Below are positions 14,523 through 51,119 of a stretch of 64,000 bases of DNA, piece after piece. The notes beneath the pieces were generated by a model. The model saw only the letters and a program-made list of their open reading frames with translations, did no database searches and had not been told where the DNA came from. Each line of letters opens with the position of its first letter. The stretch's first letter is position 1. The translations under genes were made by a program, and so were the position numbers. The stretch lies in NCBI RefSeq assembly GCF_900103455.1, contig NZ_FNHI01000002.1:248001-312000 (forward strand). Direction: 5' to 3'. The DNA is from Streptomyces wuyuanensis. GTDB taxonomy: Bacteria > Actinomycetota > Actinomycetes > Streptomycetales > Streptomycetaceae.

Positions 14523-15356
14523 ATGTGGGGCGAAGAGCGCGGTACCGAACCCAAGGCGTCCAGTGGGTCCATCGCGGTGGACACGGCGGGACTCGCGGTC
14601 CTCCTGCGGAGCTGGCGCGCCCGTGCCGGGCAGCGACTCGGCCTGGGCAGCCCCCTGCCCCAAGTGGAAGTGGCCTCCGAACTCGGCATGAGCGAGCGGT
14701 GGTACCGCGAACTGGAACGCGGCTCGATCCCGCGTCTGGATCCCCGCGTACTGTCCCGTCTGGCGGACGTCCTGCGCCTCGACGCGGACGAACGTGCGGC
14801 GCTGCACTTCCACGCCTTCGGCGGCACCCCGTACGCAACCCCGTCCCGCTCCGGCCGCCCGGCCGACCGGCCCGCCCTCCAGCAGCTGGTCGACCGGCAG
14901 ATGCCGCGCCCCGCCTACGTGACCGACACCCGTTGGGACATCGTCACGCACAACAGCGCCATGGCCGAGTGGTTCCCCTGGGTCCTCGCCCAGGACGCCA
15001 ACCTCATCCGCTGGGCCCTGACCAGCCCGGAGGCCCGTGAGCAACTGGTGGACTGGTCCCGTCACGCGTACATCTACCTGGCCATGGTCCGCTTCGCCAT
15101 GGCCGAGCGCCCGGACGATCCGGGCCTCTCGGCGCTGCTGCACGAGATCCTCCAGGACCCCGCCTGCCGGCGCCTCTGGACAGAGCGGACGTGCATCGTC
15201 GGCAACCGCGACGGCCACCGCTTCCGGCTTCGCCTGCCGCACGTCGCCCCCGCGGTCATCGAAGTGGTGACGCAGGTCCTCCTGCCCGCCGGACACCCGG
15301 GACTGCGATTCGTCGTTCTCGGAGACGAGCCGTCGTCCCCGGCCGACGGCAACTGA
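14523..15356 (+). CDS. XRE-family regulator with MmyB-like ligand-binding domain (putative cluster regulator)
   Basis: A 277-residue protein. An N-terminal Cro/CI-type helix-turn-helix spans about residues 15-80 (LLRSWRARAG; QVEVASELGMSERWYRELERGS; LSRLADVLRLD). It is followed by an MmyB-like ligand-binding domain (about 100-270) with HNSAMAEWFPWVL, LIRWAL and a C-terminal FVVLGD. MmyB-type proteins are actinobacterial transcription factors whose PAS-like C-terminal domain binds a small, possibly fatty-acid-like ligand. ATG 14523 follows GGGGAAG; GTG 14505 is an in-frame alternative. It lies 187 nt upstream of the biosynthetic operon, with twin palindromes in between, so it is the obvious candidate to control that operon. 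Confidence 0.88.
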   Translation: MWGEERGTEPKASSGSIAVDTAGLAVLLRSWRARAGQRLGLGSPLPQVEVASELGMSERWYRELERGSIPRLDPRVLSRLADVLRLDADERAALHFHAFGGTPYATPSRSGRPADRPALQQLVDRQMPRPAYVTDTRWDIVTHNSAMAEWFPWVLAQDANLIRWALTSPEAREQLVDWSRHAYIYLAMVRFAMAERPDDPGLSALLHEILQDPACRRLWTERTCIVGNRDGHRFRLRLPHVAPAVIEVVTQVLLPAGHPGLRFVVLGDEPSSPADGN

Positions 15357-15393
15357 TTACACGCCACCGCAACCCGGGAATCAATACCCGGTG

Positions 15394-15446
15394 ACCGGCA
15401 AAGAATTGCCGGTGTCGATTCGAGTGTCACCGGCAAATCTTTGCCG
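15394..15446. promoter_or_regulatory. Two similar palindromes upstream of the biosynthetic operon
   Basis: Site 1 is ACCGGCAA-AGAA-TTGCCGGT (15394-15413). Site 2 is CGGCAAA-TC-TTTGCCG (15431-15446). Their centres are 35 bp apart. Both share the half-site CGGCAA. A TTGACA (15458-15463) lies just downstream as a possible -35, though no good -10 follows. They probably bind a dimeric regulator, most simply the adjacent XRE/MmyB protein. Confidence 0.55.
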
Positions 15447-15542
15447 ATCGGCAGGCATTGACAGAAGAAATGGCTTGCGGGTTTTCTCGATTCGCGAGGC
15501 GGTTCAAGCCGCCCAGTTCGAGAGAGAATCCGGAGACCGGCG

Positions 15543-16493
15543 TTGCAGGCGCTTATGAACATCGAGAAGGCAATCCTGGGACGGGGCGACTGGGATGCCA
15601 CCCGGCAGGAGGGCGCCGCAAGGCAGGACTCCACCGCCCGACCCGTCCGGCGCGTCGGCGTGGTGGGCTCGGGCACCATGGGCGGCGGCATCGCCGAACT
15701 GTGCGCTCTGCGCGGCCTGGACGTCCGGCTCGCGGTGTCCCGGGAGTCCTCGCTGGTCTCCGCGCCCCGGCGCCTCGCGGCGTCCCTGGACCGACGGGTG
15801 TCCAGGAACCAGCTCTCCGAGGCGGACCGGGACGCCGCGCTCTCCCGGGTCTCCGTCACCACCGACCTGGCGGACCTGGGCGACCGCCGGCTCGTGATCG
15901 AGGCCGTTCCCGAGGACGAGGACCTCAAGCTCGACCTGTTCACCACGCTCGACAAGGCCGTGGACCCGGACGCGATCCTGGCCTCGACGACCTCGGCCAT
16001 CACCATCACCCGGCTCGCACGTGCCACGGCACACCCCGGCCGGGTGATCGGGATGCACTTCTTCAACCCGGTCGTCTCGTTGCCGCTGGTGGAACTGGTC
16101 CCGACGCTTCTCACCGACCCGGCCGTCCTCCGGAGCGCGGAGACGTTCGTCGCCGAGACGCTCGGCAAGGAGCCGATCACGGCGGGGGACCGCAGCGGGT
16201 TCGTGGTCAACGCACTGCTCGTCCCGTACCTGCTGTCCGCCGTCCGCATGCTCGAATCGGGCTACGCGTCGACCGAGCACATCGACCGCGGAATGGAAGG
16301 CGGCTGCGCCCATCCCATGGGTCCCCTGCGGCTGTGCGATCTCATCGGTCTCGACGTCGTCGCGGCGGCTGCCGACGCCCTGTACGAGGAATTCAAGGAG
16401 CCGCTCTACGCTCCGCCGTCACTGCTGTCGCGCATGGTGGAATCCGGCCTTCTCGGCAGAAAGACCGGCCGCGGATTCTACGCGTACGCATAG
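15543..16493 (+). CDS. 3-hydroxyacyl-CoA dehydrogenase-like enzyme (first operon gene)
   Basis: A 316-residue NAD(P)-dependent oxidoreductase of the 3-hydroxybutyryl-CoA dehydrogenase family. The Rossmann motif GVVGSGTMGGGIAEL begins near residue 39, STTSAI and the catalytic-His GMHFFNPV lie in the middle, and the C-terminal helical domain has RSGFVVNALLVPYL, PMGPLRLCDLIGLD and GRKTGRGFYAY. An extension of about 35 residues precedes the Rossmann fold. TTG 15543 is chosen because GGAG lies 7 nt before it and because the resulting MQALMNIEK resembles the start of the next protein; ATG 15555 would be 19 nt from the ribosome site. It may set the oxidation state of a beta-position carbonyl in the cluster's product. 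The substrate is unknown. Confidence 0.85.
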   Translation: MQALMNIEKAILGRGDWDATRQEGAARQDSTARPVRRVGVVGSGTMGGGIAELCALRGLDVRLAVSRESSLVSAPRRLAASLDRRVSRNQLSEADRDAALSRVSVTTDLADLGDRRLVIEAVPEDEDLKLDLFTTLDKAVDPDAILASTTSAITITRLARATAHPGRVIGMHFFNPVVSLPLVELVPTLLTDPAVLRSAETFVAETLGKEPITAGDRSGFVVNALLVPYLLSAVRMLESGYASTEHIDRGMEGGCAHPMGPLRLCDLIGLDVVAAAADALYEEFKEPLYAPPSLLSRMVESGLLGRKTGRGFYAYA

Positions 16494-16536
16494 CTCACGA
16501 GGCGCCACCGTCCCACGGATTTTGAGGAACACACGC

Positions 16537-17748
16537 ATGCACGCGTACATGAACATCAAGAAGTCGGCGCGGATAAGCCACGACTTCTGGGAGACCACCA
16601 CAGAGGCCGGCATGTTCGACATCGTCGCGGCCGGTCTGGGCGAGGGACGGCACAGGTCGCTGGCCGACGGCCACGAGTTCGTCAACATGTCCTCGTACTC
16701 GTACCTCGGCCTGGACACCCATCCGAAGATCGTCCAAGGCGCGATCGACGCCGTGAGGGCGGAAGGAGCGCTCAACACCTCGACCTCCCGGATGCGGATA
16801 CGCTTCGCCGCGCTCAGGGATGCCGAGGACGCCCTGTCGGAGTTGTTCGACGTGGAGGCCGTGACCGTGGCCTCCTGCGCCGCGGCGGCCTGGGCGAGCC
16901 TGCCCCTGCTCGCCTCCGGACTCCTCACCGACGGCACGCCGCCGTTGATGGTCTTCGACAAGAACGCGCACTTCTGCCTCAACGCGATGAAGCCGAACGT
17001 CGCCGACGAGGCCCCCCTCACCACCATCCGGCACAACGACGTCGACGCCCTCGAAGACCTCTGCAGGCAGCACCCCCAGGTCGCCTACATCGCCGACGGC
17101 GTGTACAGCACCGGTGGGAAGGCGCCCGTCGAGGAGCTGCTCCGACTGCAGGAGAAGCACGGCCTGTTCCTGTTCTTCGACGAGGCCCACGGCATCTCCA
17201 CCGTCGGCGAGCGCGGCCGCGGAGCGGTCCTGGAGACCATGGGCGGGATCAACGACCGGACCCTGATCATCACATCCCTCAACAAGGGCTTCGGCGCATC
17301 GGGCGGTGCGATCTTCCTCGGCCGCAAGGGCTCACCTGCGCGGCGCGACGTCGCCCTGCGCAACGGCGGCCCGCTGATGTGGTCGCAGAGGATCAACACC
17401 GCCGGTCTCGGTGCCGTGCTGGCCTCGGCCGAACTGCACCGCTCGGACGAACTCCCGTTGCTCCAGCGCCGGCTCCAGCGGAACATCGACCTGTTCGACA
17501 GCCTGCTCCCGACCGGGCTGAGCGGCGACGGACTGCCCATCCGCTTCGTGGACATCGGCTCCGAGGACGCGACCGTCCGTCTGGCGCAGGCGCTCCTGGA
17601 GCGGGGCTACTACGCCTCGCCCATCTTCTTCCCCGTCATCGCCCGCGGAAAGGCCGGCCTGAGGCTGATGCTCCGCGCGAACATGAGCGCCGCCGAGATC
17701 GAGGACTTCTGCAGGCAGCTCAAGGAACTGAGGGACCGGCATGTCTGA
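16537..17748 (+). CDS. Alpha-oxoamine synthase family PLP enzyme (AONS/ALAS/SPT fold)
   Basis: A 403-residue fold-type I PLP enzyme of the family that decarboxylatively condenses an amino acid with an acyl-CoA (BioF, 5-aminolevulinate synthase, serine palmitoyltransferase). Visible motifs are the N-terminal VNMSSYSYLGL, the substrate loop region NTSTSRMR, the PLP Asp/His of FFDEAHGISTVGERGRG, and the Schiff-base lysine in ITSLNKGFGASGGAIF. The closing segment is PVIARGKAGLRLMLRANMS. ATG 16537, 8 nt after GAGGA, gives MHAYMNIKK. It lies 43 nt after the dehydrogenase gene and overlaps the exporter gene by 8 nt. No biotin or haem genes adjoin, so a specialised alpha-amino-ketone product is inferred. 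Confidence 0.88.
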   Translation: MHAYMNIKKSARISHDFWETTTEAGMFDIVAAGLGEGRHRSLADGHEFVNMSSYSYLGLDTHPKIVQGAIDAVRAEGALNTSTSRMRIRFAALRDAEDALSELFDVEAVTVASCAAAAWASLPLLASGLLTDGTPPLMVFDKNAHFCLNAMKPNVADEAPLTTIRHNDVDALEDLCRQHPQVAYIADGVYSTGGKAPVEELLRLQEKHGLFLFFDEAHGISTVGERGRGAVLETMGGINDRTLIITSLNKGFGASGGAIFLGRKGSPARRDVALRNGGPLMWSQRINTAGLGAVLASAELHRSDELPLLQRRLQRNIDLFDSLLPTGLSGDGLPIRFVDIGSEDATVRLAQALLERGYYASPIFFPVIARGKAGLRLMLRANMSAAEIEDFCRQLKELRDRHV

Positions 17749-19000
17749 GGCCCGGTCCAGGGGTACGTCCCGGACGGCCGCGGCGCAGCCCGACGTGCCC
17801 GCATCCGAGCCGGAGCGCCGAAAGCCGGAGCGCCGCACCATGCTCGTCGGCTGTCTGCTCGTGTTCACCGCGCAGATGGCCACGACCGTCTACCTGCCCT
17901 CCCTCCCCGCGGTCCAGCACGACCTCGGCGTGTCCCGCAGCTTCGCCGCGCTGTCGGTGTCCCTCTTCGTCATCGGCGCGGCCGCGCCCGTCGTGCTGTG
18001 GGGGCGTGCGGCGGACCGGTACGGGCGGCGTGCCTCGGTGCTCGCCGCACTCGTGCTGTTCGTCGCCTCCAGTGCACTGCTGGCGCTCAACACGTCCGCG
18101 TGGGGGCTGCTCGTGCTGCGCTCCGTACAGGGCATCGGCGCCGGAGGCGCGGCCATCATCGCGCGCATCTTCGTACGGGACCTCGGCGGTGGCGACGCGC
18201 TCGCCCGTCGCCTGTCGGTGCTGTCGATCGCCTTCGTCACCGCCCTCGGCGGCGGGCAGTTCCTGGGCGGTCTCATCGGGACCTACGCCCACTGGCAGGC
18301 CGGATTCGTCGTCCTGGCCATGGTGGGGACCGTCGGCGCGCTCGGTGCGGCGACACTGCCCCTGCACCCCGGGCAGGGCCGCGCCGAACAGACCGGCATG
18401 GTCCGGATCTACCTGCGCATCCTGACGGTGCCGGCGTTCCTGAAGCCCACCGTCGCCGGCGGGCTCGGCTTCGCCACGATCGTCCTCCTCCAGGAGGTCG
18501 CACCCTTCGTCTTCCAGCACCACTTCGACCTGAGCGTGGACGCCTACGGCAATGTGGGGCTGCTCTTCGGGCTGGCCTACTTCGCGGGCGCGGTCATGGT
18601 GAACCGGCTGGTCGCCTCCGCCGGGTCGAGCCGGCTGATGCGGATCGGCGCCCTGATCATGACGGGCTCCGGTCTGCTGCTGATCGTCCTGTGGCTGCTG
18701 CCGGGCGTCCCGCTCACGGCCGCGCTCGTGGTGTTCACCGCCCTGTACTGCGCCGTCACCTTCGGGCAGGCGGCGCTCTTCCCCAGCAGCATGGCCGTCG
18801 CGGTGAGCGCCGTGAAGGACCACGGTGCCTACGCCGTCGCGCTGTGCGGGTTCCTCGCCCAGTCGATCGCAGGCGTCGTGGCGACCTTCGCCGTCCTCCT
18901 GCACACCAACCTCGTCTGGGCGGGCGTCGCCGCCGCGCTCAGCGCGCTGGCCTACGCCCTCGTACGCCGTGACGCCTCCAATCCGACCGGAAACCGATGA
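17741..19000 (+). CDS. MFS drug:H+ antiporter-like exporter (DHA1/Bcr-CflA type)
   Basis: A 419-residue, 12-helix major facilitator. A 33-residue charged N-terminus precedes helix 1. The loop 2-3 signature appears as LWGRAADRYGRRASVLAA, and motif C-like residues occur in LSIAFVTALGGGQFLGGLIG. The resemblance to Bcr/CflA drug-resistance exporters (YLPSLPAVQHDLGVS after helix 1) suggests export of the cluster product. The start ATG 17741 overlaps the upstream stop by 8 nt, and its stop overlaps the next ATG by 4 nt (ATGA), so the operon is translationally coupled. Confidence 0.9.
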   Translation: MSEARSRGTSRTAAAQPDVPASEPERRKPERRTMLVGCLLVFTAQMATTVYLPSLPAVQHDLGVSRSFAALSVSLFVIGAAAPVVLWGRAADRYGRRASVLAALVLFVASSALLALNTSAWGLLVLRSVQGIGAGGAAIIARIFVRDLGGGDALARRLSVLSIAFVTALGGGQFLGGLIGTYAHWQAGFVVLAMVGTVGALGAATLPLHPGQGRAEQTGMVRIYLRILTVPAFLKPTVAGGLGFATIVLLQEVAPFVFQHHFDLSVDAYGNVGLLFGLAYFAGAVMVNRLVASAGSSRLMRIGALIMTGSGLLLIVLWLLPGVPLTAALVVFTALYCAVTFGQAALFPSSMAVAVSAVKDHGAYAVALCGFLAQSIAGVVATFAVLLHTNLVWAGVAAALSALAYALVRRDASNPTGNR

Positions 19001-20601
19001 CGACACTTCGCTCCCGTATCGACACCTCGTCCGAGGTGTTCCAGCGCAATGCCGAAGCCTTCGAGGGCAAGCGGCAGATCATCGCCGAAGCCCGGGCCGC
19101 CGCCATCGCCGGCGGGGACGCCCGAGCCCATCGCCGCCACGCCGAACGCGGCAAACTCACGGCGCGCCGACGCGTCGTCGAGCTGCTCGACCCCGGCACC
19201 CCGTTCATGGAGATCGGGCAGCTGGCCGGCCACGACGTGTACGACGAGCCCGTTCCCTCGGCCGCCTTGATCACCGGAATCGGTGTCGTCGGCGGCCGGC
19301 CCGTCATGGTCTTCGCCAATGACGCGACCGTGAAGGGGGGAACGTACTTCCCGCTCACCGTGCAGAAGCACCTGCGCGCCCAGAAGATCGCCCGCGAGAA
19401 CGGCCTGCCGTGCGTCTACCTGGTCGATTCGGGCGGCATCTACCTCCCCTTGCAGGAGGACCTGTTCCCCGACGAGTACCACCTCGGGCGCATCTTCCGG
19501 AACATCGCCGAACTCTCGGCGCTCGGGCTGCCCCAGATCGCGGCCGTCATGGGCTCGTGCACCGCGGGAGGCGCCTACATCCCCGCGATGTGCGACGAGG
19601 CGGTCATCGTCCGGGGCAACGGCACGATCTTCCTCGGCGGTCCCCAACTGGTCCGTGCGGCCACGGGCGAGGTGGTCGACGCAGAGACCCTCGGCGGGGC
19701 GGATCTGCACACCCGGGTCACGGGTGTCGCCGACCACCTGGCCGAGAACGACGAACACGCCCTGGAACTGGTACGGGACATCGTCCGCCGCACCGGCCCC
19801 GGCACGGTTTCGGCACCGCCGCGGAGCCCCAGACCGCCGCTGTACGACCCGGCCGAGCTGCCCGGCATCCTGAGCGCCGACCTCCGCGAGCCCATCGCGG
19901 CCCGCGAGATCCTGGCGCGGCTGCTCGACGGCAGCGAGTTCGCCGAGTACCGCGCCCGGTACGGCCCCACCCTCGTGTGCGGCACGGGACATGTCGGCGG
20001 CTATCCGGTCGGTGTGGTGATCAACGACGGGGTGCTGTTCCCGGAGAGCGCGCAGAAGGGCGCGAACTTCATCGAGTTGTGCGCCCAGCGCGACATCCCG
20101 CTGCTCTTCCTGCACAACATCAACGGCTTCATGGTCGGCGCCGAGTACGAGGCCGACGGAATCGCCAAGCACGGCGCGAAGCTCGTCAACGCCGTCTCGT
20201 GCGCCAAGGTGCCCAAGTTCAGCCTGGTGGTCGGCGGAAGCTTCGGTGCGGGCAACTTCGCCATGTGCGGCAGGTCCATGGGCCCGCGGCTGATGGCCAT
20301 GTGGCCGAACGCCAAGTCCACCGCCGTGGGCGCGGAGCAGACGGCGACGGTGATGGCGCTGATCCGCGGCGACCAGCTCGCCAAGGAAGGGAAGACCCTC
20401 TCCGCCGAGGAGGAGGAGTCGATCAAGCGCCCCATCATCGAGACGTACGAGCGGCAGTCCCATCCGCTGTACTACGCCGCCAGGCTGTGGGTGGACGCCG
20501 TGGTGGACCCGACCGACACCCGTGAATGGCTGACGCTCTGTCTGGCGACCGCCGCGGACGCCCCCCAGCAGGAGACACGCTTCGGCGTGTTCAGGATGTG
20601 A
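18997..20601 (+). CDS. Acyl-CoA carboxylase carboxyltransferase (beta) subunit, methylcrotonyl-CoA-carboxylase-like
   Basis: A 534-residue biotin-dependent carboxyltransferase with two crotonase-like halves. Sequence style is that of MCC/geranyl-CoA carboxylase beta subunits rather than propionyl-CoA carboxylase: KGGTYFPLTVQKHLRAQKIA, YLVDSGGIYLPLQEDLFPD, AAVMGSCTAGGAYIPAMCDE, FLGGPQLVRAATGEVV and GGADLHTRVTGVADHLAEND. The second half has FLHNINGFMVG and VVGGSFGAGNFAMCGRS. It partners the alpha subunit encoded 6 nt downstream. The other leucine-catabolism genes (acyl-CoA dehydrogenase, enoyl hydratase, HMG-CoA lyase) are absent, so a cluster-specific substrate is inferred. Confidence 0.93.
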   Translation: MTTLRSRIDTSSEVFQRNAEAFEGKRQIIAEARAAAIAGGDARAHRRHAERGKLTARRRVVELLDPGTPFMEIGQLAGHDVYDEPVPSAALITGIGVVGGRPVMVFANDATVKGGTYFPLTVQKHLRAQKIARENGLPCVYLVDSGGIYLPLQEDLFPDEYHLGRIFRNIAELSALGLPQIAAVMGSCTAGGAYIPAMCDEAVIVRGNGTIFLGGPQLVRAATGEVVDAETLGGADLHTRVTGVADHLAENDEHALELVRDIVRRTGPGTVSAPPRSPRPPLYDPAELPGILSADLREPIAAREILARLLDGSEFAEYRARYGPTLVCGTGHVGGYPVGVVINDGVLFPESAQKGANFIELCAQRDIPLLFLHNINGFMVGAEYEADGIAKHGAKLVNAVSCAKVPKFSLVVGGSFGAGNFAMCGRSMGPRLMAMWPNAKSTAVGAEQTATVMALIRGDQLAKEGKTLSAEEEESIKRPIIETYERQSHPLYYAARLWVDAVVDPTDTREWLTLCLATAADAPQQETRFGVFRM

Positions 20602-20607
20602 CGAAGA

Positions 20608-22593
20608 ATGCTCAAACGAGTCTTGATCGCGAATCGCGGCGAGATAGCCCGCCGCATCGCCCGCACCTGCCGTCGTCTCGACATCGAGTACGTGGCCGTG
20701 TACTCCGACGCCGACCGGGCGGCGCCCCATCTGGCGGGCGCCGTCGAGCGCGTGCGCATCGGCCCGGCGGCCGCCGCCGACAGCTACCTGAACATCGAGT
20801 CGATCGTCGACGCGGCGCTCCGGTCGGGCTGCGACGCGGTACATCCCGGCTACGGGTTCCTGTCGGAGAACCACCACTTCGCATCCGCGGTCGCCGACGC
20901 CGGTCTGGTCTTCATCGGCCCGGACGCCGCGATGATCGCGGCCATGGGGGACAAGGCGACGGCCAGGGCCCTGATGGCCGAGGCGGGCGTCCCCGTCCTG
21001 CCCGGCTCCGAGGACGCCACCGAGTCGGTCGACCGGCTCGTCGCCGACGCCCGCCGCATCGGCTACCCGGTGATCCTCAAGCCCGTGGCCGGCGGCGGCG
21101 GCAAGGGCATGCGGGTGGTCGAGGACGAGGCGGACATGGCCGACGCCGTGGCCGAGGCCGTTCGTCTGGGCCGCGGCAACTTCGGGGACGGACGGCTCCT
21201 GGCCGAGCGCTATGTGCCGCGCCCCCGCCACATCGAGGTCCAGGTGTTCGGGGACACCCATGGCGCCCTCGTCCATCTGTTCGAGCGGGAGTGCTCGCTC
21301 CAGCGCCGTCATCAGAAGATCGTCGAGGAGGCTCCCGCGGCCGGCCTCGCAGCCGAGGTCCGTACGGCGCTGCTCGAAGCCGCCGTGCGCGGCGCCAGGG
21401 CCCTGGGGTACGTCAACGCCGGCACCTTCGAGTTCATCCTGGACACCGACGGCCGGTTCTACTTCCTCGAGGTCAACACGCGCCTCCAGGTCGAGCATCC
21501 GGTCACCGAGGAGATCACCGGCGTCGACCTCGTCGAGTGGCAGCTGCGCGTGGCCGCCGGGGAGCATCTGCCGCTCGCCCAGCACGAGATCACCGCCACC
21601 GGGCACGCGGTGGAGTGCCGGGTGTACGCCGAGGACCCGGAAGCGGGGTTCCAGCCCGCTCCCGGGCGGGCGGACGTCGTCGAATGGCCCGCCGACGCGG
21701 TTCACGTGCGCGTGGAGGCCGCCTTCGACACGTACGGCGACGTCCCCGCCTTCTACGACCCCATGATTGCCAAGCTGGTCGCCCGGGGCCACGACCGCGT
21801 GTCGGCCCTTCGGCGGCTGGCCGATGCGGCCCGCACCACCAAGGTCGTCGGCCTGACCACGAACCTCGGCTTCGTGGCGGACCTGCTCCGGGACACCCGG
21901 GTCGTCGCGGGGCGCGTCGACACCCACCTGGTCGACGCGTTCGTCGCGGACACGCCGCCCCGCGGAAGCTCGGCCGTGGCCGCCGCGTGCGCGGCGGCGA
22001 TGGAGGTGCCGCCCAAAGGGGACCCCGCGGCCTCTCCGTGGACCGGCACGGTCGGGCCGCTGGATCGCCCGGCCCTGGACTCCGGCGCACCGCTGGGCCG
22101 GGTCGTCCTGCGCGCCGGCGGCGAGGAGCTGGAGGCCCGGCTCACAGGAGTTCACGGCGGCGCGGTGGACGTCACGGTGCACGACAGGACGTTCCGCGTC
22201 ACCGTCTCGCACCGCGACGGGCTGTTCAGGGGCGTGGTGGGCGACCAGAGGTGGGTCGGGCTCCGCGTCGCCGACCGCTTCGAACTGGTCGTCGACGGTC
22301 GGCGGACGGAGCTGACCGCCAGGACGCACGCCGAGAGCGGCGCCGAGGCGGTCGACGACGTCGTGCGCTCGCCCATGCCGGGCACGGTCGTCGCGCTGTC
22401 CTGCGCGGTGGGCGACACGGTCGAGGAGGGGGAGGTGCTCATGATCGTCGAGGCCATGAAGATGGAGAACCGCATCCTCGCCCCGCTCGGCGGAGTGGTC
22501 GAGGAGATCAGGTGCGCCCTGCACGGCACGGTGTCGGCCGACCAGGTCCTCGTCGTTCTGGCACCCGGGACGGAGACCGACCCCGGCGCCTGA
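20608..22593 (+). CDS. Acyl-CoA carboxylase biotin carboxylase/BCCP (alpha) subunit
   Basis: A 661-residue fusion of biotin carboxylase (about 1-445) and biotin carboxyl carrier domain (about 590-655), the layout of MCC and acyl-CoA carboxylase alpha subunits. The N-terminus is LIANRGEIARRIARTCRR, the ATP-grasp Gly loop is KPVAGGGGKGMRVV, and the metal-binding segment is FYFLEVNTRLQVEHPVTEEITG. The biotinylated lysine is in VEAMKMEN near residue 620. ATP, bicarbonate and biotin give carboxybiotin, which the beta subunit transfers to an acyl-CoA. It is the last gene of the operon, with a terminator 260 nt downstream. It depends on a biotin ligase encoded elsewhere. Confidence 0.95.
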   Translation: MLKRVLIANRGEIARRIARTCRRLDIEYVAVYSDADRAAPHLAGAVERVRIGPAAAADSYLNIESIVDAALRSGCDAVHPGYGFLSENHHFASAVADAGLVFIGPDAAMIAAMGDKATARALMAEAGVPVLPGSEDATESVDRLVADARRIGYPVILKPVAGGGGKGMRVVEDEADMADAVAEAVRLGRGNFGDGRLLAERYVPRPRHIEVQVFGDTHGALVHLFERECSLQRRHQKIVEEAPAAGLAAEVRTALLEAAVRGARALGYVNAGTFEFILDTDGRFYFLEVNTRLQVEHPVTEEITGVDLVEWQLRVAAGEHLPLAQHEITATGHAVECRVYAEDPEAGFQPAPGRADVVEWPADAVHVRVEAAFDTYGDVPAFYDPMIAKLVARGHDRVSALRRLADAARTTKVVGLTTNLGFVADLLRDTRVVAGRVDTHLVDAFVADTPPRGSSAVAAACAAAMEVPPKGDPAASPWTGTVGPLDRPALDSGAPLGRVVLRAGGEELEARLTGVHGGAVDVTVHDRTFRVTVSHRDGLFRGVVGDQRWVGLRVADRFELVVDGRRTELTARTHAESGAEAVDDVVRSPMPGTVVALSCAVGDTVEEGEVLMIVEAMKMENRILAPLGGVVEEIRCALHGTVSADQVLVVLAPGTETDPGA

Positions 22594-24236: not shown

Positions 24237-25811
24237 ATGTCCGTGATGCGTAACTCGCGGCGAAGACTGTCCGCGGCCAGCGCGATAGCCGTCGCCGCCC
24301 TGGCACTCGGTGCCGCCTCCGCCCTCCCGGCCACCGCGGCAGAGCCCGCCCCGGTGGGCGTGATCGAGAACGCGGGCGCCCCCGGTGCCATCCCCGGCAG
24401 CTACATCGTCACCCTCGACGAGTCGGCCGCCGACGCCGGTTCCAAGGCGGGCAAGGACCTCGCCGCGGAGTACGGCGCCAAGATCAAGAAGACGTACAGC
24501 TCCGCCCTCAACGGATACGCCGTCGAGCTCTCCGAGGCGCAGGCCAGGAAGTTCGCCGGGGACCCCGCCGTCGAATCCGTCGTGCAGAACCGGGTGTTCA
24601 CCATCTCCGGCACCCAGCCGAACCCGCCCTCCTGGGGCCTGGACCGCATCGACCAGCGCGCGCTGCCGCTCGACCAGAGCTACACCTACCCCGACTCCGC
24701 GGGCGAGGGCGTCACCGCGTACATCATCGACACCGGTGTACGGATCACCCACAGCGACTTCGGTGGCCGCGCCTCGTACGGCTACGACGCCATCGACAAC
24801 GACAACACGGCGCAGGACGGCAACGGCCACGGCACGCACGTCGCCGCCACGGTCGCCGGCGGTGCCTACGGCGTCGCGAAGAAGGCGAAGGTCGTCGGCG
24901 TCCGGGTGCTCAACAACTCCGGTTCCGGCACGACCGCCCAGGTCGTCGCGGGCATCGACTGGGTGACGCAGAACGCGGTCAAGCCGGCCGTCGCCAACAT
25001 GAGCCTCGGCGGCGGCGTCGACACGGCGCTGGACACCGCGGTCCGCAACTCCATCGCGTCCGGCATCACCTACGCCGTGGCGGCGGGCAACAGCGGCGCC
25101 AACGCCTCCAACTACTCCCCGGCCCGGGTGACCGAGGCCATCACCGTCGGCTCCACGACCAGCACCGACGCGCGCTCCAGCTTCTCCAACTACGGCAGCG
25201 TGCTGGACATCTTCGCGCCGGGCTCGTCCATCACGTCGGCGTGGAACACCAGCGACAGCGCGACCAACACCATCTCCGGCACCTCGATGGCCACCCCGCA
25301 CGTCGCCGGTGCCGCCGCCCTCTACCTGGCGGACAACCGGACGGCCACCCCGGCACAGGTGTCCTCGGCACTGACCACCGCGGCGACCCCGAACGTGGTC
25401 GGCAACCCGGGTTCCGGCTCGCCGAACCGGCTGCTGTACGTCGGAGGCGGCACGACCACGCCGCCCGGGCCGAAGTTCGAGAACACCGCCGACTACCCGA
25501 TCAGCGACAACGCCACCGTGGAGTCGCCCGTCACCGTCAGCGGCATCGCGGGCAACGCGCCCGCCGCGCTCCAGGTGCCGGTCGGCATCGTGCACACCTA
25601 CATCGGTGACCTCCAGGTCCAGCTCATCGCCCCGGACGGCACCGCGTACACGCTGAAGTCGTACGGCACCGGCGGCAGCAGCGACAACATCAACACCACG
25701 TACACCGTGAACGCCTCCTCGGAGGTCGCGAACGGCACCTGGAAGCTGCGGGTGAGCGACAACGCCCGCTACGACACGGGCCGGATCGACGCCTGGGGCC
25801 TCCAGTTCTGA
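24237..25811 (+). CDS. Secreted subtilisin-family serine protease with I9 prodomain and P domain
   Basis: A 524-residue secreted protease. A signal peptide covers about residues 1-35 ([20 protein letters not shown], then an ATAAEP cleavage site). An inhibitor-I9 propeptide (about 50-118, [10 protein letters not shown]) precedes the S8 catalytic domain (about 130-400). The catalytic triad is Asp in [14 protein letters not shown], His in [12 protein letters not shown] and Ser in [13 protein letters not shown]. The C-terminal part (about 418-524) is a proprotein-convertase P domain (beta sandwich; [16 protein letters not shown]). ATG 24237 has a strong GAGGAGG site. It is monocistronic with a terminator directly after. 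It likely degrades extracellular protein or acts in developmental protease cascades. Confidence 0.96.
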
Positions 25812-44296: not shown

Positions 44297-44537
44297 GACC
44301 CGGTCAACCGCTCGGCTCGCGTTCCTTGGGGGGATCCACCCCAACCTGACGCTCTTCGCAGTCGCCCTGCCCACGGGAGAACCCGTGCGGTGGCGCGGTG
44401 TCACTGCCGTGCCCGTCTTCAGGTGACGGGCAGGCAATCGGCGAGACCGTCACGCAGCACGCCGGAACGGGCCATACGCCCGGTCATCTACGCGCGCAGG
44501 ACCGCGGGTCACCCGACACCCGTGAATGGACACCATC

Positions 44538-45587
44538 ATGACCAGTCCAATTGAGATCGAGGGCGAGACCGCCTCTGTCGCCTTGGACAAGGAGACCGCT
44601 GCCGGCAACGACGGCGCGGACAAGGACCAGGACAAGAAGGAGCTCACCGGCCGGTCGCCAGGCCAGCTGATGTGGACGCGCTTCAAGCGCGACCGCACGG
44701 GCATGATCTCCGCCTGTGTCGTGCTCTTCTTCTTCGCCGTCGCCGCGCTGGCCCCGGTGATCTCGGCGGTGTACGGCAAGAACCCGTACACGCTCTACGC
44801 GCAGGAGCCCGACTACCCGTTCCTGCTCGACGACTTCGCCATGCCCAACGGTCCGTTCGGCGGCGTCTCGGGCGAGTTCTGGTTCGGTGTCGAGCCCAAC
44901 CTGGGCCGTGACGTGTTCACCATGCTGATCTACGGCATGCGCACGTCGCTGTTCATGGCGCTGGTTCTGACGTTCCTCTGCGTGGTGACCGGTGTCATCA
45001 TCGGATTGATCGGCGGCTACTTCGGCGGCAAGGTCGACTACTGGCTGGGCCGGATCACGGACTTCTTCCTGTCCTTCCCGAACCAGCTGTTCTTCATCGC
45101 CTTCATGCCCGTCGTGACCGCGCTGTTCGTCTCCCCGACGGACGAGACGCCGACCTACCTCCGGGCGGTCGCGATCATCCTGGTGTCGTGGTTCCTGGGC
45201 TGGATGGGCATGGCCCGTCTGGTGCGCAGCTCGGTACTCTCCCTGCGCGAGCGGGAGTTCGTCGAGGCGGCGAAGGTCTCCGGAGCCCCTCGGTCGCGGA
45301 TCGTGTTCAAGGAGATCCTGCCGAACATCGTCACTCCCATCCTGGTGCAGGGCACGTACATGCTGCCCAGCGCCATCCTCAACATCGCATTCCTCTCGTA
45401 CGTGGGTGTCGGCTTCGTCGAGCCGACCCCCGACTGGGGCCGCATGTTCGCCACGGGCGCCAAGCTCTACGAGCTGGACCCGGCCTTCATGTTCTTCCCC
45501 GGTGTCGCGATGGTGATCTTCGTCCTGGCCTTCAACCTCCTCGGTGACTCGGTCCGGGACGCGTTCGACCCCAAGACCGGACGGTGA
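44538..45587 (+). CDS. bldKA: Oligopeptide ABC transporter permease BldKA
   Basis: A 349-residue DppC/OppC-type inner-membrane permease. A 45-residue charged N-terminus, helix 1 (ISACVVLFFFAVAALAPVI), a periplasmic loop, then five further helices. The EAA cytoplasmic loop appears as EFVEAAKVSGAPRSRIVFKEILPNI. It is the first of five genes in the exact bldKA-E order (permease, binding lipoprotein, permease, ATPase, ATPase). In S. coelicolor the system imports a peptide signal needed for aerial mycelium. ATG 44538 is used; ATG 44526 is an equally possible start, as neither has a strong ribosome site. Confidence 0.9.
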   Translation: MTSPIEIEGETASVALDKETAAGNDGADKDQDKKELTGRSPGQLMWTRFKRDRTGMISACVVLFFFAVAALAPVISAVYGKNPYTLYAQEPDYPFLLDDFAMPNGPFGGVSGEFWFGVEPNLGRDVFTMLIYGMRTSLFMALVLTFLCVVTGVIIGLIGGYFGGKVDYWLGRITDFFLSFPNQLFFIAFMPVVTALFVSPTDETPTYLRAVAIILVSWFLGWMGMARLVRSSVLSLREREFVEAAKVSGAPRSRIVFKEILPNIVTPILVQGTYMLPSAILNIAFLSYVGVGFVEPTPDWGRMFATGAKLYELDPAFMFFPGVAMVIFVLAFNLLGDSVRDAFDPKTGR

Positions 45588-45596
45588 CGTCCACGT

Positions 45597-45619
45597 GCGA
45601 GGGCAGCTGCCGCCCTCGC
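45597..45619 (+). other. Hairpin between bldKA and bldKB
   Basis: An 8-bp stem (45597-45604 with 45612-45619) with 7-nt loop inside the 98-nt bldKA-bldKB spacer. It may stabilise or modulate the operon mRNA. Confidence 0.45.
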
Positions 45620-45685
45620 GCCGGGCAACCGGACGGCCAGGCAGCTCTTCTGGATAACAACCGACAGGTAGGTGCAACGAGCATC

Positions 45686-47482
45686 ATGAATGCCATTCGA
45701 TCGCGCTCCGCACGCGCTGTAGTCGTCGCGATGGCGGCCGGCTCGCTGGCGCTGACCGCTTGCTCCGGCAACAGCGGCAAGAACGCCAAGGACGAGTCGA
45801 AGTCCCAGGCTGACGCCTCGGCCCAGTCGAAGCCGGTTGCCTACGGTGACGCTGCCGCCTCCAACGGCCCGGCTGCCGAGGTCCCGGGTGCCAAGCCCGG
45901 CGGCACCATCAACGTCTACGCCCAGTCGGACATGACCCACATGGACCCGGGTCAGATCTACGTCAGCGACGCCGGCCAGTTCGCCAACCTGATCCACCGC
46001 GGTCTGACCAACTACCAGGAGGACGACAAGGGCAACCTGACCGTCGTCGGTGACATCGCCACCGACTCCGGCAAGTCCTCCAACGGCGGCAAGACCTGGA
46101 CCTTCACCCTGAAGGACGGCATCAAGGACGAGGACGGCAACGCCATCACGTCCGCCGACGTCCGCCACTCGATCGAGCGCCTGTACGCGAAGCACATCTT
46201 CGACGGCCCGTCGTTCGTCCAGTCGTGGCTCTCCGGCAACGACTACCGCAAGGCGCTGCCGGACGGCCCGTACAAGGGCAAGCACCTGCCCGACACGGTC
46301 CTCGCGACCCCGGACGCCAAGACGGTCGTCTTCAACTTCAGCCAGCCGCGCCCGGACCTGCCGCAGGCCCTGGCCATGGCCGGTTACGCCATCGTTCCGC
46401 AGAAGGCGGACACGAAGGAGAAGTACGACAAGGCCCCCAAGGCCCTCGGCCCGTACAAGATCGCCGAGTACAAGGCCGGCAAGTCCCTCAAGCTGGTGAA
46501 GAACACCAACTGGGACCCGAAGACGGACGCCGTGCGCCACCAGTACGTGGACGGCTACAACTTCACCACCACCATCGACCCGGTCAACCAGACCAAGCGT
46601 CTGATCGCCGACCAGGGCGACGCCAAGAACGCCATCCAGTTCTCGGACCAGGTCGACACGGACCAGATGCAGGCCGTGATCACCAACCCGAAGGTGAACG
46701 CCCGTACGGTCAAGGGCTACCAGCCCTACGTCTGGCAGCTGACCTTCAACCTGGACCGCATGAAGGACAAGAAGGTCCGTGACGCCATCGCGCACGCGAT
46801 GCCGAGCGCGGCCATGGTCCAGGCCGACGGTGGCAAGTATGGCGGTGAGGTCGCCGGTGGTCTGTTCGCCCCGACCCTGCCGGGCTTCGACAAGAGCTAC
46901 GACCCGTTCGGCAAGCTGAAGAAGCCCAACGGTGACCTCGACAAGGCCAAGGAGCTGCTGAAGGAGGCGGGTGTCAAGGAGGGCACGAAGCTCACCTACG
47001 CCTACTCCAACACCCCGCGTGGCCAGAAGCAGCAGGTCATCATCAAGACCGCGCTGGCCAAGCTCGGCTTCGACGTCCAGGCCAAGGAGATCGACCGGGC
47101 CGCGTACTACGAGACCATCGGCAAGATCAAGAACCCGTACGACCTGTACATGACCGGCTGGGGCCAGGACTGGTCCTCCCCGTCCACGGTCGTCACCCCG
47201 GTCTATGACGGTGGCCTGATCTCCGACGGTGCCTCGAACTACTCCCACATCAACGACCCCAAGGTCAACGCCCTCATCCAGGAGGCGCTGAAGCTTGAGC
47301 CGCAGGCTGCGGCCAAGAAGTGGGAAGAGGCCCACCACCGCATCGTCGAGGAGATCAACCCGGCCGTCCCGGTCTACTACTCCAAGATGGTCCAGCTGTT
47401 CGGTTCGAACATCGGCGGCGCCAAGTACAGCACCGAGTCGAGCTACATCGACATCAACGACCTGTACCTGAAGCAGCCGTAA
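45686..47482 (+). CDS. bldKB: Oligopeptide-binding lipoprotein BldKB
   Basis: A 598-residue family 5 solute-binding lipoprotein. The signal sequence MNAIRSRSARAVVVAMAAGS leads to lipobox LALTAC with Cys near residue 26, followed by a Lys/Ser-rich linker. The binding domain starts GGTINVYAQSDMTHMDPGQ. Further family features are KTWTFTLKDGIKDEDGNAITSADV, NAIQFSDQVDTDQM and the C-terminal INPAVPVYYSKM. It is the receptor that captures extracellular peptide and delivers it to BldKA/BldKC. Codon choice is strongly biased, consistent with high expression. It is flanked by hairpins on both sides. Confidence 0.94.
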   Translation: MNAIRSRSARAVVVAMAAGSLALTACSGNSGKNAKDESKSQADASAQSKPVAYGDAAASNGPAAEVPGAKPGGTINVYAQSDMTHMDPGQIYVSDAGQFANLIHRGLTNYQEDDKGNLTVVGDIATDSGKSSNGGKTWTFTLKDGIKDEDGNAITSADVRHSIERLYAKHIFDGPSFVQSWLSGNDYRKALPDGPYKGKHLPDTVLATPDAKTVVFNFSQPRPDLPQALAMAGYAIVPQKADTKEKYDKAPKALGPYKIAEYKAGKSLKLVKNTNWDPKTDAVRHQYVDGYNFTTTIDPVNQTKRLIADQGDAKNAIQFSDQVDTDQMQAVITNPKVNARTVKGYQPYVWQLTFNLDRMKDKKVRDAIAHAMPSAAMVQADGGKYGGEVAGGLFAPTLPGFDKSYDPFGKLKKPNGDLDKAKELLKEAGVKEGTKLTYAYSNTPRGQKQQVIIKTALAKLGFDVQAKEIDRAAYYETIGKIKNPYDLYMTGWGQDWSSPSTVVTPVYDGGLISDGASNYSHINDPKVNALIQEALKLEPQAAAKKWEEAHHRIVEEINPAVPVYYSKMVQLFGSNIGGAKYSTESSYIDINDLYLKQP

Positions 47483-47499
47483 CACCGGCTCACGGCTGA

Positions 47500-47539
47500 C
47501 CCGTGGGGGTGCGCGCCAGGCGGAGCGCACCCCCACGGG
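47500..47539 (+). terminator. Strong intercistronic hairpin between bldKB and bldKC
   Basis: A perfect 15-bp stem (47500-47514 with 47525-47539) and 10-nt loop, 18 nt after the bldKB stop and 50 nt before bldKC. It sits inside the operon, so it is more likely an attenuator or 3'-end protector that keeps BldKB in excess over the membrane components than a complete terminator. Confidence 0.75.
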
Positions 47540-47589
47540 ACATGAACCCCTCACCGCCCCGCCGCTTCCGAAGAGAGCAGCTTCCCGCC

Positions 47590-48567
47590 ATGCTTCAGTT
47601 CCTCATCCGCAGGCTGACCGGCGCCGTCGTGATCATGTTCCTGATCGGCGCGTTCACGTTCTTCCTGTTCTACACAATCCCCCAGGACTTCGCCGCGCTC
47701 TCCTGCGGCAAGAACTGCAGCCCGGAGAACCTCGCGGTCATCCGCGAGAACCTCGGCCTCGACAAGCCGATCTGGACGCAGTTCTGGGACTTCATGGTCG
47801 GAATCGTTGCCGGCCGGGACTTCCCCGTCGGTCACTGTGACGCTCCCTGTCTCGGGGTCTCCTTCCACACCGGTGACTTCGTGTGGGACTCCATCATCGA
47901 CCGCTTCCCGCTGACGCTCTCGCTGACCGTCGGTGGTCTGGTGATCTTCCTGGTCCTGGGCCTCGGCTCGGGTCTGCTCGCCGCCTGGAAGCGCGGCACC
48001 TCGCTCGACAAGGCCGTCAGCGGCGCCTCCATGGTGCTCAGCTCGTTCCAGATCTACTTCCTGGGGCCGATCGTCCTTGGCATCTTCGTGTACAGCACCG
48101 GCTGGCTGGAGAGCCCCAAGTACGTTCCGTTCTCGGACGATCCGGCGGCCTGGGCTCTGGGCCTGCTGATCCCCTGGGCCGTCATGGCCACGATCTTCAC
48201 CGCGCAGTACACGCGTATGGCGCGCTCCACCATGATCGAGCAGCTCCAGGAGGAGCACGTCCGCACCGCCCGGGCCAAGGGCATGCGCCAGCGGTACGTC
48301 TTCTTCCGGTACGCCTGGCGCGGTTCGCTGACCCCCATCGTCACCATCCTCGGCATGGACCTGAGCGGTCTCCTCGCGGGTGCCGTGGTCACCGAGTTCA
48401 CCTTCGACCTGGCGGGCATCGGCCGTCTCGCGGTGGACTCGTCGCTGACCAAGGACCTGCCGCTGACGATGGGCGTGATGCTGTTCGGAGCCTTCTTCAT
48501 CCTGCTCCTGAACATCCTCGTGGACCTCGCCTACGCCTACATCGACCCGCGCGTGCGCCTCGCCTAG
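47590..48567 (+). CDS. bldKC: Oligopeptide ABC transporter permease BldKC
   Basis: A 325-residue DppB/OppB-type permease with about six helices. It opens with MLQFLIRRLTGAVVIMFLIG and the family's NLGLDKPIWTQFWDF segment. The EAA loop is EEHVRTARAKGMRQRYVFFRYAWR. Two extra cysteine pairs occur in the periplasmic loop (SCGKNCSPE and HCDAPC), a possible disulfide-bonded feature. ATG 47590 has only a weak ribosome site (GAGAGC). It pairs with BldKA to form the channel. Confidence 0.93.
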   Translation: MLQFLIRRLTGAVVIMFLIGAFTFFLFYTIPQDFAALSCGKNCSPENLAVIRENLGLDKPIWTQFWDFMVGIVAGRDFPVGHCDAPCLGVSFHTGDFVWDSIIDRFPLTLSLTVGGLVIFLVLGLGSGLLAAWKRGTSLDKAVSGASMVLSSFQIYFLGPIVLGIFVYSTGWLESPKYVPFSDDPAAWALGLLIPWAVMATIFTAQYTRMARSTMIEQLQEEHVRTARAKGMRQRYVFFRYAWRGSLTPIVTILGMDLSGLLAGAVVTEFTFDLAGIGRLAVDSSLTKDLPLTMGVMLFGAFFILLLNILVDLAYAYIDPRVRLA

Positions 48568-48577
48568 GAGAACGACC

Positions 48578-49639
48578 GTGACCACAATGACCAAGACCGA
48601 AGACACACCGGCCCCGACCGGGCCGGAGGCCTTCCTCTCGGTCCGCGACCTGCGGGTGCGGTTCTCCACCGAGGACGGCATCGTCAAGGCGGTGGACGGG
48701 CTCTCGTTCGACGTCGAGCGGGGCAAGACCCTCGGCATCGTGGGCGAGTCGGGCTCCGGCAAGTCCGTGACGAACCTGACCGTCCTCGGACTGCACAACC
48801 GCAAGACCACCGAGATCGACGGCGAGATCGTCCTGGACGGCCAGGAACTGACCGGCGCGTCCGAGAGGGAGCTGGAGAAGCTCCGCGGCAACAAGGTCGC
48901 GATGATCTTCCAGGACCCGCTCACCGCGCTGTCGCCGTACTACACCGTGGGCCGGCAGCTCTCCGAGCCGTTCATGAAGCACCGCGGGGCCTCCAAGAAG
49001 GAGGCGAAGGCCCGGGCCATCGAGATGCTCGACAAGGTCGGCATCCCCCAGCCCGCACTGCGCTTCAACGACTACCCGCACCAGTTCTCCGGCGGTATGC
49101 GCCAGCGCGCGATGATCGCCATGGCGCTGATGTGCGACCCGGACCTGCTGATCGCGGACGAGCCCACCACGGCGCTCGACGTGACCGTGCAGGCCCAGAT
49201 CCTCGACCTGCTCAAGGACCTCCAGCAGGAGTTCGGGTCGGCGATCATCTTCATCACCCACGACCTGGGCGTCATCGCCAACATGGCCGACGATCTGCTC
49301 GTGATGTACGCGGGACGGGCGGTGGAGCGCGGCAGCGTCCGCGAGGTGCTCCGGGCGCCCCAGCACCCGTACACCTGGGGTCTGCTGAGCTCCATGCCGC
49401 GTCTGGGCGGGGACACCGGCGAGTCGCTGGTGCCGATCCCGGGTTCGCCGCCCTCGCTGCTGAACCCGCCCACCGGCTGCCCCTTCCACCCGCGCTGCGC
49501 CTTCACCGACCAGGTCACCGGCGCGTCGTGTTCGGGTGAGCGGCCGTCGCTGGGCGCGGGGCGCGCGGCCGCGTGCCACCTCACGGGGGAGCAGAAGCAG
49601 ACCATATTCATCGATCAGATCAAGCCCCGGCTGGGCTAG
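48578..49639 (+). CDS. bldKD: Oligopeptide ABC transporter ATPase BldKD
   Basis: A 353-residue DppD/OppD-type ATPase. Walker [11 protein letters not shown] (near residue 52), Q-loop [11 protein letters not shown], signature [12 protein letters not shown], Walker [13 protein letters not shown], switch His in ITHDLGV. The C-terminal oligopeptide-transporter domain carries a Cys set ([21 protein letters not shown]), which in this family can bind an iron-sulfur cluster. GTG 48578 lies 10 nt after the bldKC stop, preceded by AGGAG. Confidence 0.95.
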
Positions 49640-49653
49640 GGAGACGCAGAGAC

Positions 49654-50772: not shown

Positions 50773-50800
50773 CGGTCGGGCCGCGCAAGGCCGGACCAGG

Positions 50801-50845
50801 AACCACCCCCGCCGCCCCGAAGGGCGGCCGGGGTGGTTCTTTTTG
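50801..50845 (+). terminator. Rho-independent terminator of the bldK operon
   Basis: A 17-bp stem with one mismatch (50801-50817 with 50822-50838), AAGA-type loop, followed by CTTTTTGG. It is one of the few terminators here with a real T-tract. Confidence 0.92.
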
Positions 50846-51082: not shown

Positions 51083-51119
51083 GGCCCCACGAAGGTCCCG
51101 GTCGCCGAGGAGGCACTCC

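Follow-up and report, generated by a model that had tools for sequence, protein, structure and literature searches.

The 64,000-nucleotide stretch of DNA from Streptomyces wuyuanensis analyzed here (contig NZ_FNHI01000002.1, positions 248,001 to 312,000 of the forward strand; hereafter the window) belongs to an 8.04-Mb genome and carries a regulator gene followed by five co-directional genes at 15543-22593, in which an alpha-oxoamine synthase is combined with an acyl-CoA carboxylase and an efflux pump. The regulator (REG, 14523-15356), an XRE-type protein with a MmyB-like ligand-binding domain (Pfam HTH_31 and MLTR_LBD), starts at ATG 14523 in an open reading frame (ORF) that itself opens at GTG 14505. 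The first gene of the operon (15543-16493) encodes a 3-hydroxybutyryl-CoA dehydrogenase-type protein (HCDH; PF02737 and PF00725) with an HFFNP motif; a GGAG is well positioned ahead of its TTG start, and a TTG lies at a comparable spot upstream in three related loci compared by eye (L009, L010, and L011; related loci are designated L throughout). It is followed by a pyridoxal phosphate (PLP)-dependent alpha-oxoamine synthase (AOS) of the PRK07505 subfamily, referred to below as OAS (16537-17748; NF005697 and PF00155), which starts at ATG 16537 in an ORF opening at TTG 16522, and by a Bcr/CflA-like (DHA1) efflux pump of the major facilitator superfamily (MFS, 17741-19000; PF07690), which scores 131 bits against TIGR00710, under that model's cut-off of 200.9. 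The last two genes encode the carboxyltransferase (beta) subunit of a carboxylase of the methylcrotonyl-CoA carboxylase (MCC)/geranyl-CoA carboxylase (GCC) lineage (CT, 18997-20601; PF01039) and its alpha subunit, a biotin carboxylase with a C-terminal biotin carrier domain (BC, 20608-22593; PF00289, PF02786, PF02785, and PF00364), in which the biotin site EAMKMEN occupies residues 615-621. All six genes lie on the plus strand with intact reading frames, and the whole is bordered by a YchF-type GTPase gene on one side and a PALP-fold enzyme gene on the other. HCDH and OAS are separated by 43 nt (stop at 16493, ATG at 16537), OAS and MFS overlap by 8 nt (17741-17748), MFS and CT overlap by 4 nt (18997-19000), and CT and BC are 6 nt apart (stop at 20601, ATG at 20608). 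An earlier note made from the sequence alone had described this regulator, these genes and their spacing, and the coordinates agree with it; it had also remarked on the lack of polyketide synthase (PKS), nonribosomal peptide synthetase (NRPS), and carrier protein, and indeed a scan of the operon and ten flanking genes found no PKS or NRPS modules (ketosynthase, condensation/adenylation) and no carrier protein.

One pattern-based OAS scan of a collection of 84,980 species yielded 65 loci, to which a search of the Streptomycetaceae and a Pantoea agglomerans plasmid added others. The OAS tree contains a cassette clade of 37 sequences, and the carboxylase pair adjoins OAS in 33 of these, spanning both Actinomycetota and Pseudomonadota. 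This figure comprises 31 of the 35 loci of a synteny table, in which genes were called with a purpose-made simple caller, together with those of Rhodococcus (L035) and Pantoea (L074); the CTs of L034 and L036, at 59% identity and under the 60% cut-off for labeling, are counted as present (the table itself lists CT in 29 and BC in 31 loci), and the CT of L031 and the BC of L022 are each in two pieces. The table leaves out L035; L045, whose matches are in many pieces; the remnant L069; and L074, for which the annotation was used, as well as the duplicates L119, L122, L124, and L125, which equal L032, L014, L020, and L027, respectively. An MFS pump of either of two distinct types occurs in all 35 loci and CT together with BC in 31, with the uninterrupted order OAS-MFS-CT-BC in 20 and the complete order REG-HCDH-OAS-MFS-CT-BC in seven; near OAS there is an HCDH gene in 15 loci, an ATP-grasp ligase gene in 12, a beta-ketoacyl-acyl carrier protein synthase III (KAS III) gene in six, and an acyl-CoA dehydrogenase gene in three. 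The distances among OAS and among CT sequences are strongly correlated (r 0.949, 32 loci), a value reached in none of 2000 permutations (highest 0.384). These observations support the view that the five-gene set is not accidental and forms one conserved functional unit, in keeping with the operon proposed in the earlier note. The loss of gene order in homologous clusters, which that note had named as a possible refutation, is not seen among the nearest relatives, in which the order is kept. The group is not purely actinobacterial. The cassette family has a rare and patchy distribution: matches at E <= 1e-140 were obtained in 10 of 394 Streptomycetaceae genomes, including that of the window, and among 399 genomes from the order of Paraburkholderia L030 the single match was the genome of L030 itself, so that none was added. 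In Streptomyces sp. CC228A (L069:9892-10546), only fragments matching the regulator and OAS are found, representing either a decayed cassette or an assembly fault.

Two operator-like palindromes, which have no strand, lie between REG and HCDH: ACCGGCAAAGAATTGCCGGT at 15394-15413 and ACCGGCAAATCTTTGCCGAT at 15429-15448. They were located by pattern scans and fit ACCGGCAANNNNTTGCCGGT with 0 and 1 mismatch. At up to three mismatches the window holds just these two, as compared with an average of 0.19 in shuffled sequences, one of 100 shuffles reaching two. In the whole genome there are six fits at up to two mismatches, and four for a reversed control pattern; the twin palindromes that the earlier note had pointed out along with an XRE/MmyB regulator are the only sites with 0 or 1 mismatch. 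They also recur in related upstream regions, since the strict pattern matches in the REG-HCDH interval of L009, where it does so twice, and of L011, L012, and L013, and degenerate copies can be recognized by eye in the upstream sequences of L010, L037, L121, and L020-L022. For L014 and L120, which have the regulator gene downstream instead, the stretches inspected showed no palindrome, and a sigma-70 promoter scan of positions 15300-15700 gave no match. The regulator gene is near OAS in 13 of the 35 loci. The palindromes and the regulator would fit pathway-specific regulation, whether by activation or repression.

The OAS of the window scores 531 bits against NF005697 (cut-off 342), matches PF00155, and carries the motif SLNKGFG with the PLP-binding lysine at position 250; its nearest PDB chain is that of an AOS, Alb29. 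Its status as a true AOS relative, on which the earlier note relied, is thereby upheld, and membership in the family gives good support to the assignment of its reaction class, with the substrates being inferred. The enzyme is under the cut-off of every AOS equivalog model (BioF, Kbl, SPT, ALAS, and CqsA). More distant OAS relatives occur in other settings. In Mycobacterium (L043, L044, and L071), a relative of 46% identity is followed by a conserved gene run that includes an ATP-grasp ligase, which in L043 is over the cut-off of PRK07206 and reaches 192 bits, under the cut-off, with a dapdiamide synthase model. Many relatives of about 45-51% identity are located on rhizobial plasmids (Rhizobium and Sinorhizobium).

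The best PDB matches of CT are 9tps (662 bits), 3u9r (MCC-beta, 660), 4q0g (AccD1, 645), and human MCC-beta (8j4z, 623), followed by the geranyl-CoA carboxylase chain 5ikl (437); chains named propionyl-CoA carboxylase (PCC) score at most 248 bits, and mostly at most 241, with 9tps as the sole exception. The MCC/GCC lineage acts on alpha,beta-unsaturated acyl-CoAs, which it carboxylates at the gamma carbon, and the other lineage on saturated acyl-CoAs, which it carboxylates at the alpha carbon; the lineages are marked by an N-terminal helix, which PCC-beta lacks, a three-residue insertion, and a position occupied by Phe or Gly, and such carboxylases are frequently misnamed (PMC4673880, in excerpt). 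The alignment of the window CT with Pseudomonas aeruginosa MCC-beta starts at residue 3, takes in the N-terminal extension, and runs to the end; the window CT also has the insertion, which is absent from a class of CTs of 45% identity (L106-L109). By its N-terminal extension and its greater closeness to MCC and GCC than to PCC chains (9tps excepted), it belongs to the MCC/GCC lineage, and its reaction is best read as a putative gamma-carboxylation of an enoyl-CoA. Its Leu163 aligns with Phe191 of human MCC-beta, on the assumption that the published position 191 follows human numbering, and this selectivity position is Leu, Phe, or Ile in 35 cassette CTs, Gly occurring in none.

Closeness to MCC-beta raises the possibility that the operon contains a dedicated methylcrotonyl-CoA carboxylase and that the acyl donor of OAS is 3-methylglutaconyl-CoA, a compound whose feeding into secondary metabolism has a precedent in caprazamycin, where it was called the first report (PMC9636800, in excerpt). 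However, the window genome holds another MCC-like CT (58% identity) besides one of 45%, the cassette CTs form a group separate from the MCC-like ones, and a leucine route would have no use for thiolase, KAS III, or HCDH; this origin of the donor is rather unlikely. The enzyme was not classed as methylcrotonyl-CoA carboxylase proper, since it has Leu163 instead of Phe and no leucine-catabolic neighbors were found among the genes scanned. In a tree of 52 CTs, 35 cassette CTs and two AtuA-linked catabolic ones (L076 and L077) stand together (0.885), apart from MCC-like CTs. Ten genomes were searched for CTs; all nine with a cassette carry the cassette CT (61-79%) plus a second CT of 55-59%, and the tenth (L041), which has no cassette, gave no CT match. 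Because cassette CTs group apart and the genomes carry a second CT, the operon carboxylase is considered a dedicated enzyme, most likely of the gamma-carboxylating lineage. The earlier note's MCC-type carboxylase is accordingly retained, as an enzyme near MCC-beta chains and distinct from the other MCC-like CT of the genome. It shares architecture and lineage with MCC and GCC but differs in its grouping with AtuA-linked CTs and in an operon context of OAS rather than leucine or terpene catabolism.

The same tree could suggest that the operon serves acyl-CoA degradation and that OAS is incidental to it, since the genes of the nearest CT outgroup are part of operons that appear catabolic, with AtuA and either CaiB or a TRAP transporter. 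This is most improbable: OAS and CT diverge in parallel, the window pump resembles drug-efflux pumps, the window operon lacks genes for an acyl-CoA ligase and for later steps of breakdown, and L-amino-acid ligase genes in 12 of the 35 loci point to biosynthesis.

The genes that accompany OAS vary considerably among the relatives. The full arrangement of the window (variant A) is shared with L009-L013 and L037, from Streptomyces, Kitasatospora, and Microtetraspora, and a variant without an HCDH gene between REG and OAS (A', REG-OAS-MFS-CT-BC) occurs in L020-L022, two of which (L021 and L022) have HCDH and then a BioY gene downstream of the operon. Variant B, HCDH-OAS-CT-BC-ligase-KAS III-MFS2, is found in Amycolatopsis (L015-L017), Actinospica (L019), and L025. 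Variant C, acyl-CoA dehydrogenase-OAS-ligase-MFS2, comprises L018, L026, and L040; in L123, the gene after OAS-ligase-MFS2 encodes a type III CoA-transferase whose closest match is mesaconyl-CoA isomerase (402 bits, with a cut-off of 725). In Chromobacterium, genes for an AraC-type regulator, an EamA transporter, an enzyme of the beta-keto acid cleavage type (304 bits, cut-off 382), an alpha/beta-hydrolase, and a 3-oxoadipyl-CoA-type thiolase precede OAS-MFS-CT-BC, and on the Pantoea agglomerans plasmid (L074) fadA and fadB are divergent from the same four genes. In Actinomadura (L023 and L024), an SBP_bac_3 gene lies upstream, identified by Pfam in L023 and by membership of the same cluster in L024. 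Two further features were noted at these loci. In Nocardia crassostreae (L026:1899-11233), a second, distant OAS (35%) is located upstream of the cassette OAS, and genes for a DAO-type oxidoreductase, an aminotransferase, and a UDP-sugar dehydrogenase-like protein separate the two. In L074 (3694-5217), the binding-protein slot between two ATP-binding cassette (ABC) permease genes and fadA consists of two separate minus-strand ORFs.

HCDH scores 419 bits against NF005875 (cut-off 319); its nearest PDB chain is 6hrd and its nearest paralogue in the same genome is 56% identical. The acyl-CoA-building neighbors of OAS in the relatives, namely thiolase in Chromobacterium, fadA and fadB in Pantoea, and elsewhere KAS III or HCDH, bear on its role. 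Because relatives carry thiolase, FadA/FadB, or KAS III, or are without HCDH, HCDH is more likely to take part in acyl-CoA supply than to act on the product. The earlier note had the dehydrogenase set the oxidation level; its family and its place in the operon stand, and the role is revised to the supply side on the evidence of the relatives' genes. A product-side role would follow if CT and BC formed malonyl- or methylmalonyl-CoA, from which OAS would make a 4-amino-3-oxo acid and HCDH a 4-amino-3-hydroxy (statine-like) acid. Such a route gives the adjacent HCDH gene a function in keeping with the 3-oxo reduction typical of its family, and the top PDB match of CT, 9tps, is named a propionyl-CoA carboxylase. 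On the other hand, the chains nearest to CT are those of the MCC branch, the other PCC-named chains scoring low, malonyl-CoA is present in every cell so that a dedicated carboxylase would gain little, HCDH is missing near OAS in 20 of the 35 loci, and the HCDH family acts on CoA esters whereas OAS releases CoA. The statine-like route is therefore considered unlikely. The kind of donor shared across the variants would be a dicarboxylyl-CoA or unsaturated acyl-CoA, with glutaconyl-CoA itself as a proposal.

A model that brings these features together, and to which we give a little less than an even chance, is that the operon is a self-contained, pathway-specifically regulated route to a small exported amino-ketone acid via a glutaconyl-type CoA. 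HCDH and a housekeeping enoyl-CoA hydratase would convert a 3-oxoacyl-CoA, in the simplest case acetoacetyl-CoA, via the 3-hydroxyacyl-CoA into an enoyl-CoA such as crotonyl-CoA. CT and BC, judging from their lineage, would then add CO2 in a biotin-dependent manner to the gamma carbon, producing a glutaconyl-type dicarboxylyl-CoA. OAS would join this diacid-CoA to an L-amino acid with loss of CoA and of the amino acid's CO2, and the resulting alpha-amino ketone with a distal carboxylate would be a longer, unsaturated relative of 5-aminolevulinate. The product would be exported by the Bcr/CflA-like pump, and the XRE/MmyB-type regulator would act via the two palindromes. In relatives, the ATP-grasp L-amino-acid ligase may attach a further amino acid to give a ketomemicin-like pseudopeptide. 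The BioY gene that follows the operon in L021 and L022 provides a link to biotin that agrees with this model. In the scheme, the enzyme families, motifs, linkage, and operator-like sites come from sequence, and we infer all substrates and the product. Of the pathway outlined in the earlier note, the conserved unit, the OAS class, and the MCC-type carboxylase survive, and the HCDH step is moved to acyl-CoA supply.

Several observations weigh against the glutaconyl-type route. The cassette clade in the OAS tree has a support of only 0.80, and the cassette-only node in the CT tree carries no support value. The top match of CT, 9tps, was named propionyl-CoA carboxylase beta by its depositors, and 4q0g is named acetyl-/propionyl-CoA carboxylase AccD1. 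The size of the acyl group may vary, because the residue by which MCC and GCC are distinguished is Leu in the window CT and varies among Leu, Phe, and Ile in the others. The HCDH gene is not found near OAS in most of the tabulated loci (20, as given above), the enoyl-CoA hydratase part occurs only in FadB of Pantoea among the neighbors annotated, and the Chromobacterium thiolase is over the cut-off as a 3-oxoadipyl-CoA thiolase, which points to a C6 diacid and not to acetoacetyl-CoA. Moreover, the OAS sequences of L018, L026, L040, and L123 nest within the cassette clade (a 24-member node, support 0.997) without a cassette-type CT; a search for one in these four genomes gave best matches of only 54-56%, as compared with 74-76% in two control genomes. 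In three of them (L018, L026, and L040), a divergent acyl-CoA dehydrogenase takes the place of the carboxylase, that of L018 giving weak matches of 63 bits to the generic acyl-CoA dehydrogenase model and 54 bits to glutaryl-CoA dehydrogenase. Thus, the carboxylase is not indispensable, since three relatives carry an acyl-CoA dehydrogenase instead.

Importer genes near some cassettes also bear on the nature of the product. In Nocardia the operon runs on into an SBP_bac_5 importer, whose binding protein in L033 matches TIGR04028 (213 bits), NikA (187), and CntA (148), all under cut-off; two ABC permease genes and an ATPase gene adjoin fadA in Pantoea; SBP_bac_5 and TonB receptor genes neighbor the cassette in Trinickia (L032); related permeases occur in Amycolatopsis L015 at 168-2035; and the window has two SBP_bac_5-type importers, at 44526-50772 and 51120-56793. 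The product could on these grounds be a small exported chelator that ABC transporters bring back into the cell, much as in systems of the staphylopine type. Importers of this kind are widespread in Streptomyces, however, and those of the window lie at least 22 kb past the operon, from which unrelated genes separate them. In Trinickia the pair has a convergent orientation, the receptor being nearest heme receptors and the binding protein nearest DppA, both under cut-off; therefore, it may be an unrelated heme locus, and the receptor was set aside as an uptake candidate on the probability that it is. A staphylopine-type system is defined by an opine dehydrogenase together with a nicotianamine synthase-like enzyme, and no gene for either was found in the window operon, so that its assignment to such a system was rejected. 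A metallophore is, in our estimation, very unlikely. The importers themselves form two adjacent sets of oligopeptide/dipeptide type (44526-56793), with SBP_bac_5 proteins at 45731 and 51120 accompanied by permeases and ATPases. Elsewhere in the window, a subtilase with an I9 propeptide and a C-terminal proprotein-convertase P-domain is encoded at 24237-25811.

The glutaconyl-type route can also be extended into a carrier-protein-free biosynthetic logic that is absent from the papers found, an idea that is possible but doubtful. A gamma-carboxylase of catabolic ancestry would make a glutaconyl-type diacid-CoA solely for OAS, which would convert it to unsaturated homologues of 5-aminolevulinate, or to pseudopeptides where a ligase is present; the cassette would have moved between Actinomycetota and Pseudomonadota, the supply genes (HCDH, KAS III, thiolase, FadAB, and acyl-CoA dehydrogenase) being swapped while OAS stayed constant. 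The relatives form a coherent cross-phylum family of small clusters without a matched product or PKS, NRPS, or carrier protein; therefore, they add a searchable rule, namely an OAS from this clade with a carboxylase or acyl-CoA dehydrogenase gene next to it. If gamma-carboxylation holds true, a catabolic carboxylase lineage would be tied to alpha-amino-ketone natural products, and the predicted compounds, which would resemble 5-aminolevulinate or peptides, could act on tetrapyrrole or peptide metabolism. Because the operon is only 7 kb long, this question is directly testable. The earlier note had allowed that the set might prove to be a known pathway; no description of the five-gene set or of its product was found in the open-access literature among the matches listed, and no matching gene set was found in the available excerpts on Pantoea natural products, which were of interest given the cassette on a Pantoea plasmid. 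None of the excerpts on AOS pathways (e.g., PMC11943689 and PMC9239090) mentions a biotin carboxylase devoted to supplying an AOS.

Among characterized enzymes, the closest to OAS is Alb29 (8XHA) of the albogrisin pathway in Streptomyces albogriseolus, which is 52% identical and belongs to the same decarboxylative condensation class; its acyl donor is reportedly 3-methylcrotonyl-CoA. Alb29 condenses L-Glu with an acyl-CoA with decarboxylation (PMC11906848 and PMC10230504, in excerpt). A clade of five Alb29-type sequences is the sister of the cassette OAS clade (support for the pair 0.83). All five have Glu361, Asp363, and Arg378, whereas the cassette OAS have Ser or Pro, Ile, Leu, or Val, and Met at these positions in all 37 sequences and the Glu/Asp/Arg set in none, a pattern that resembles the remaining OAS clades rather than Alb29. 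Because of these differences, L-Glu should not be presumed to be the substrate; the three residues lend no support to it, and given the sister clade and the residues the window OAS does not appear to be of the L-Glu-using Alb29 type. One member of the Alb29 clade, on a Rhodococcus plasmid (L075:8998-19206), is accompanied by a 2-oxoglutarate-Fe dioxygenase, a PGM1-type ligase, an aminotransferase, a carrier protein, an acyl-CoA dehydrogenase, an AMP-binding protein, and an NRPS.

The ketomemicin pathway is an AOS-based, PKS- and NRPS-free route to pseudopeptides with an ATP-grasp ligase, and its genes encode an aldolase, an AOS, a dehydratase, the ligase, an amidinotransferase, and a dehydrogenase (PMC11943689, in excerpt). 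The window OAS shares 44% identity with the KtmB of a ktm-like cluster in Salinispora (L172), and cassette variants B and C likewise combine OAS with an ATP-grasp ligase; by contrast, the gene list in the excerpt has no biotin carboxylase, and the ktm ligase is of the PGM1 type and that of the cassettes of the LAL_C2 type. With its set of HCDH, OAS, MFS, CT, and BC, the window operon was not assigned to the ketomemicin clusters. Salinispora and Streptomyces relatives of 44-48% identity were likewise considered as KtmB and dismissed on the basis of their neighbors in the three that were checked (L054, L047, and L067). These three represent a separate AOS group (44-46%) with a cupin/JmjC gene just upstream in L054 (9177-13067) and L047 (9117-9980) and genes for an HpcH aldolase and an ornithine cyclodeaminase downstream in L054 and L067 (11230-13118). 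In the ktm-like clusters (L172 and L173), the amidinotransferase is unconfirmed: a 282-aa gene product in L172 has no Pfam match, and a PF02274 search found one match in each of three genomes and none on the two contigs of these clusters. In the dynaplanin pathway, the stand-alone AOS DynZ was proposed to link a phenylacetyl group to arginine, in a cluster overlooked by antiSMASH (PMC9239090, in excerpt), a parallel to the earlier note's suggestion that standard cluster finders could miss the window operon. This resembles the window operon as a stand-alone AOS pathway but differs in that two genes suffice and no carboxylase or HCDH is described in the excerpt. By analogy, the operon probably works like these other stand-alone AOS pathways, those of albogrisin, ketomemicin, and dynaplanin.

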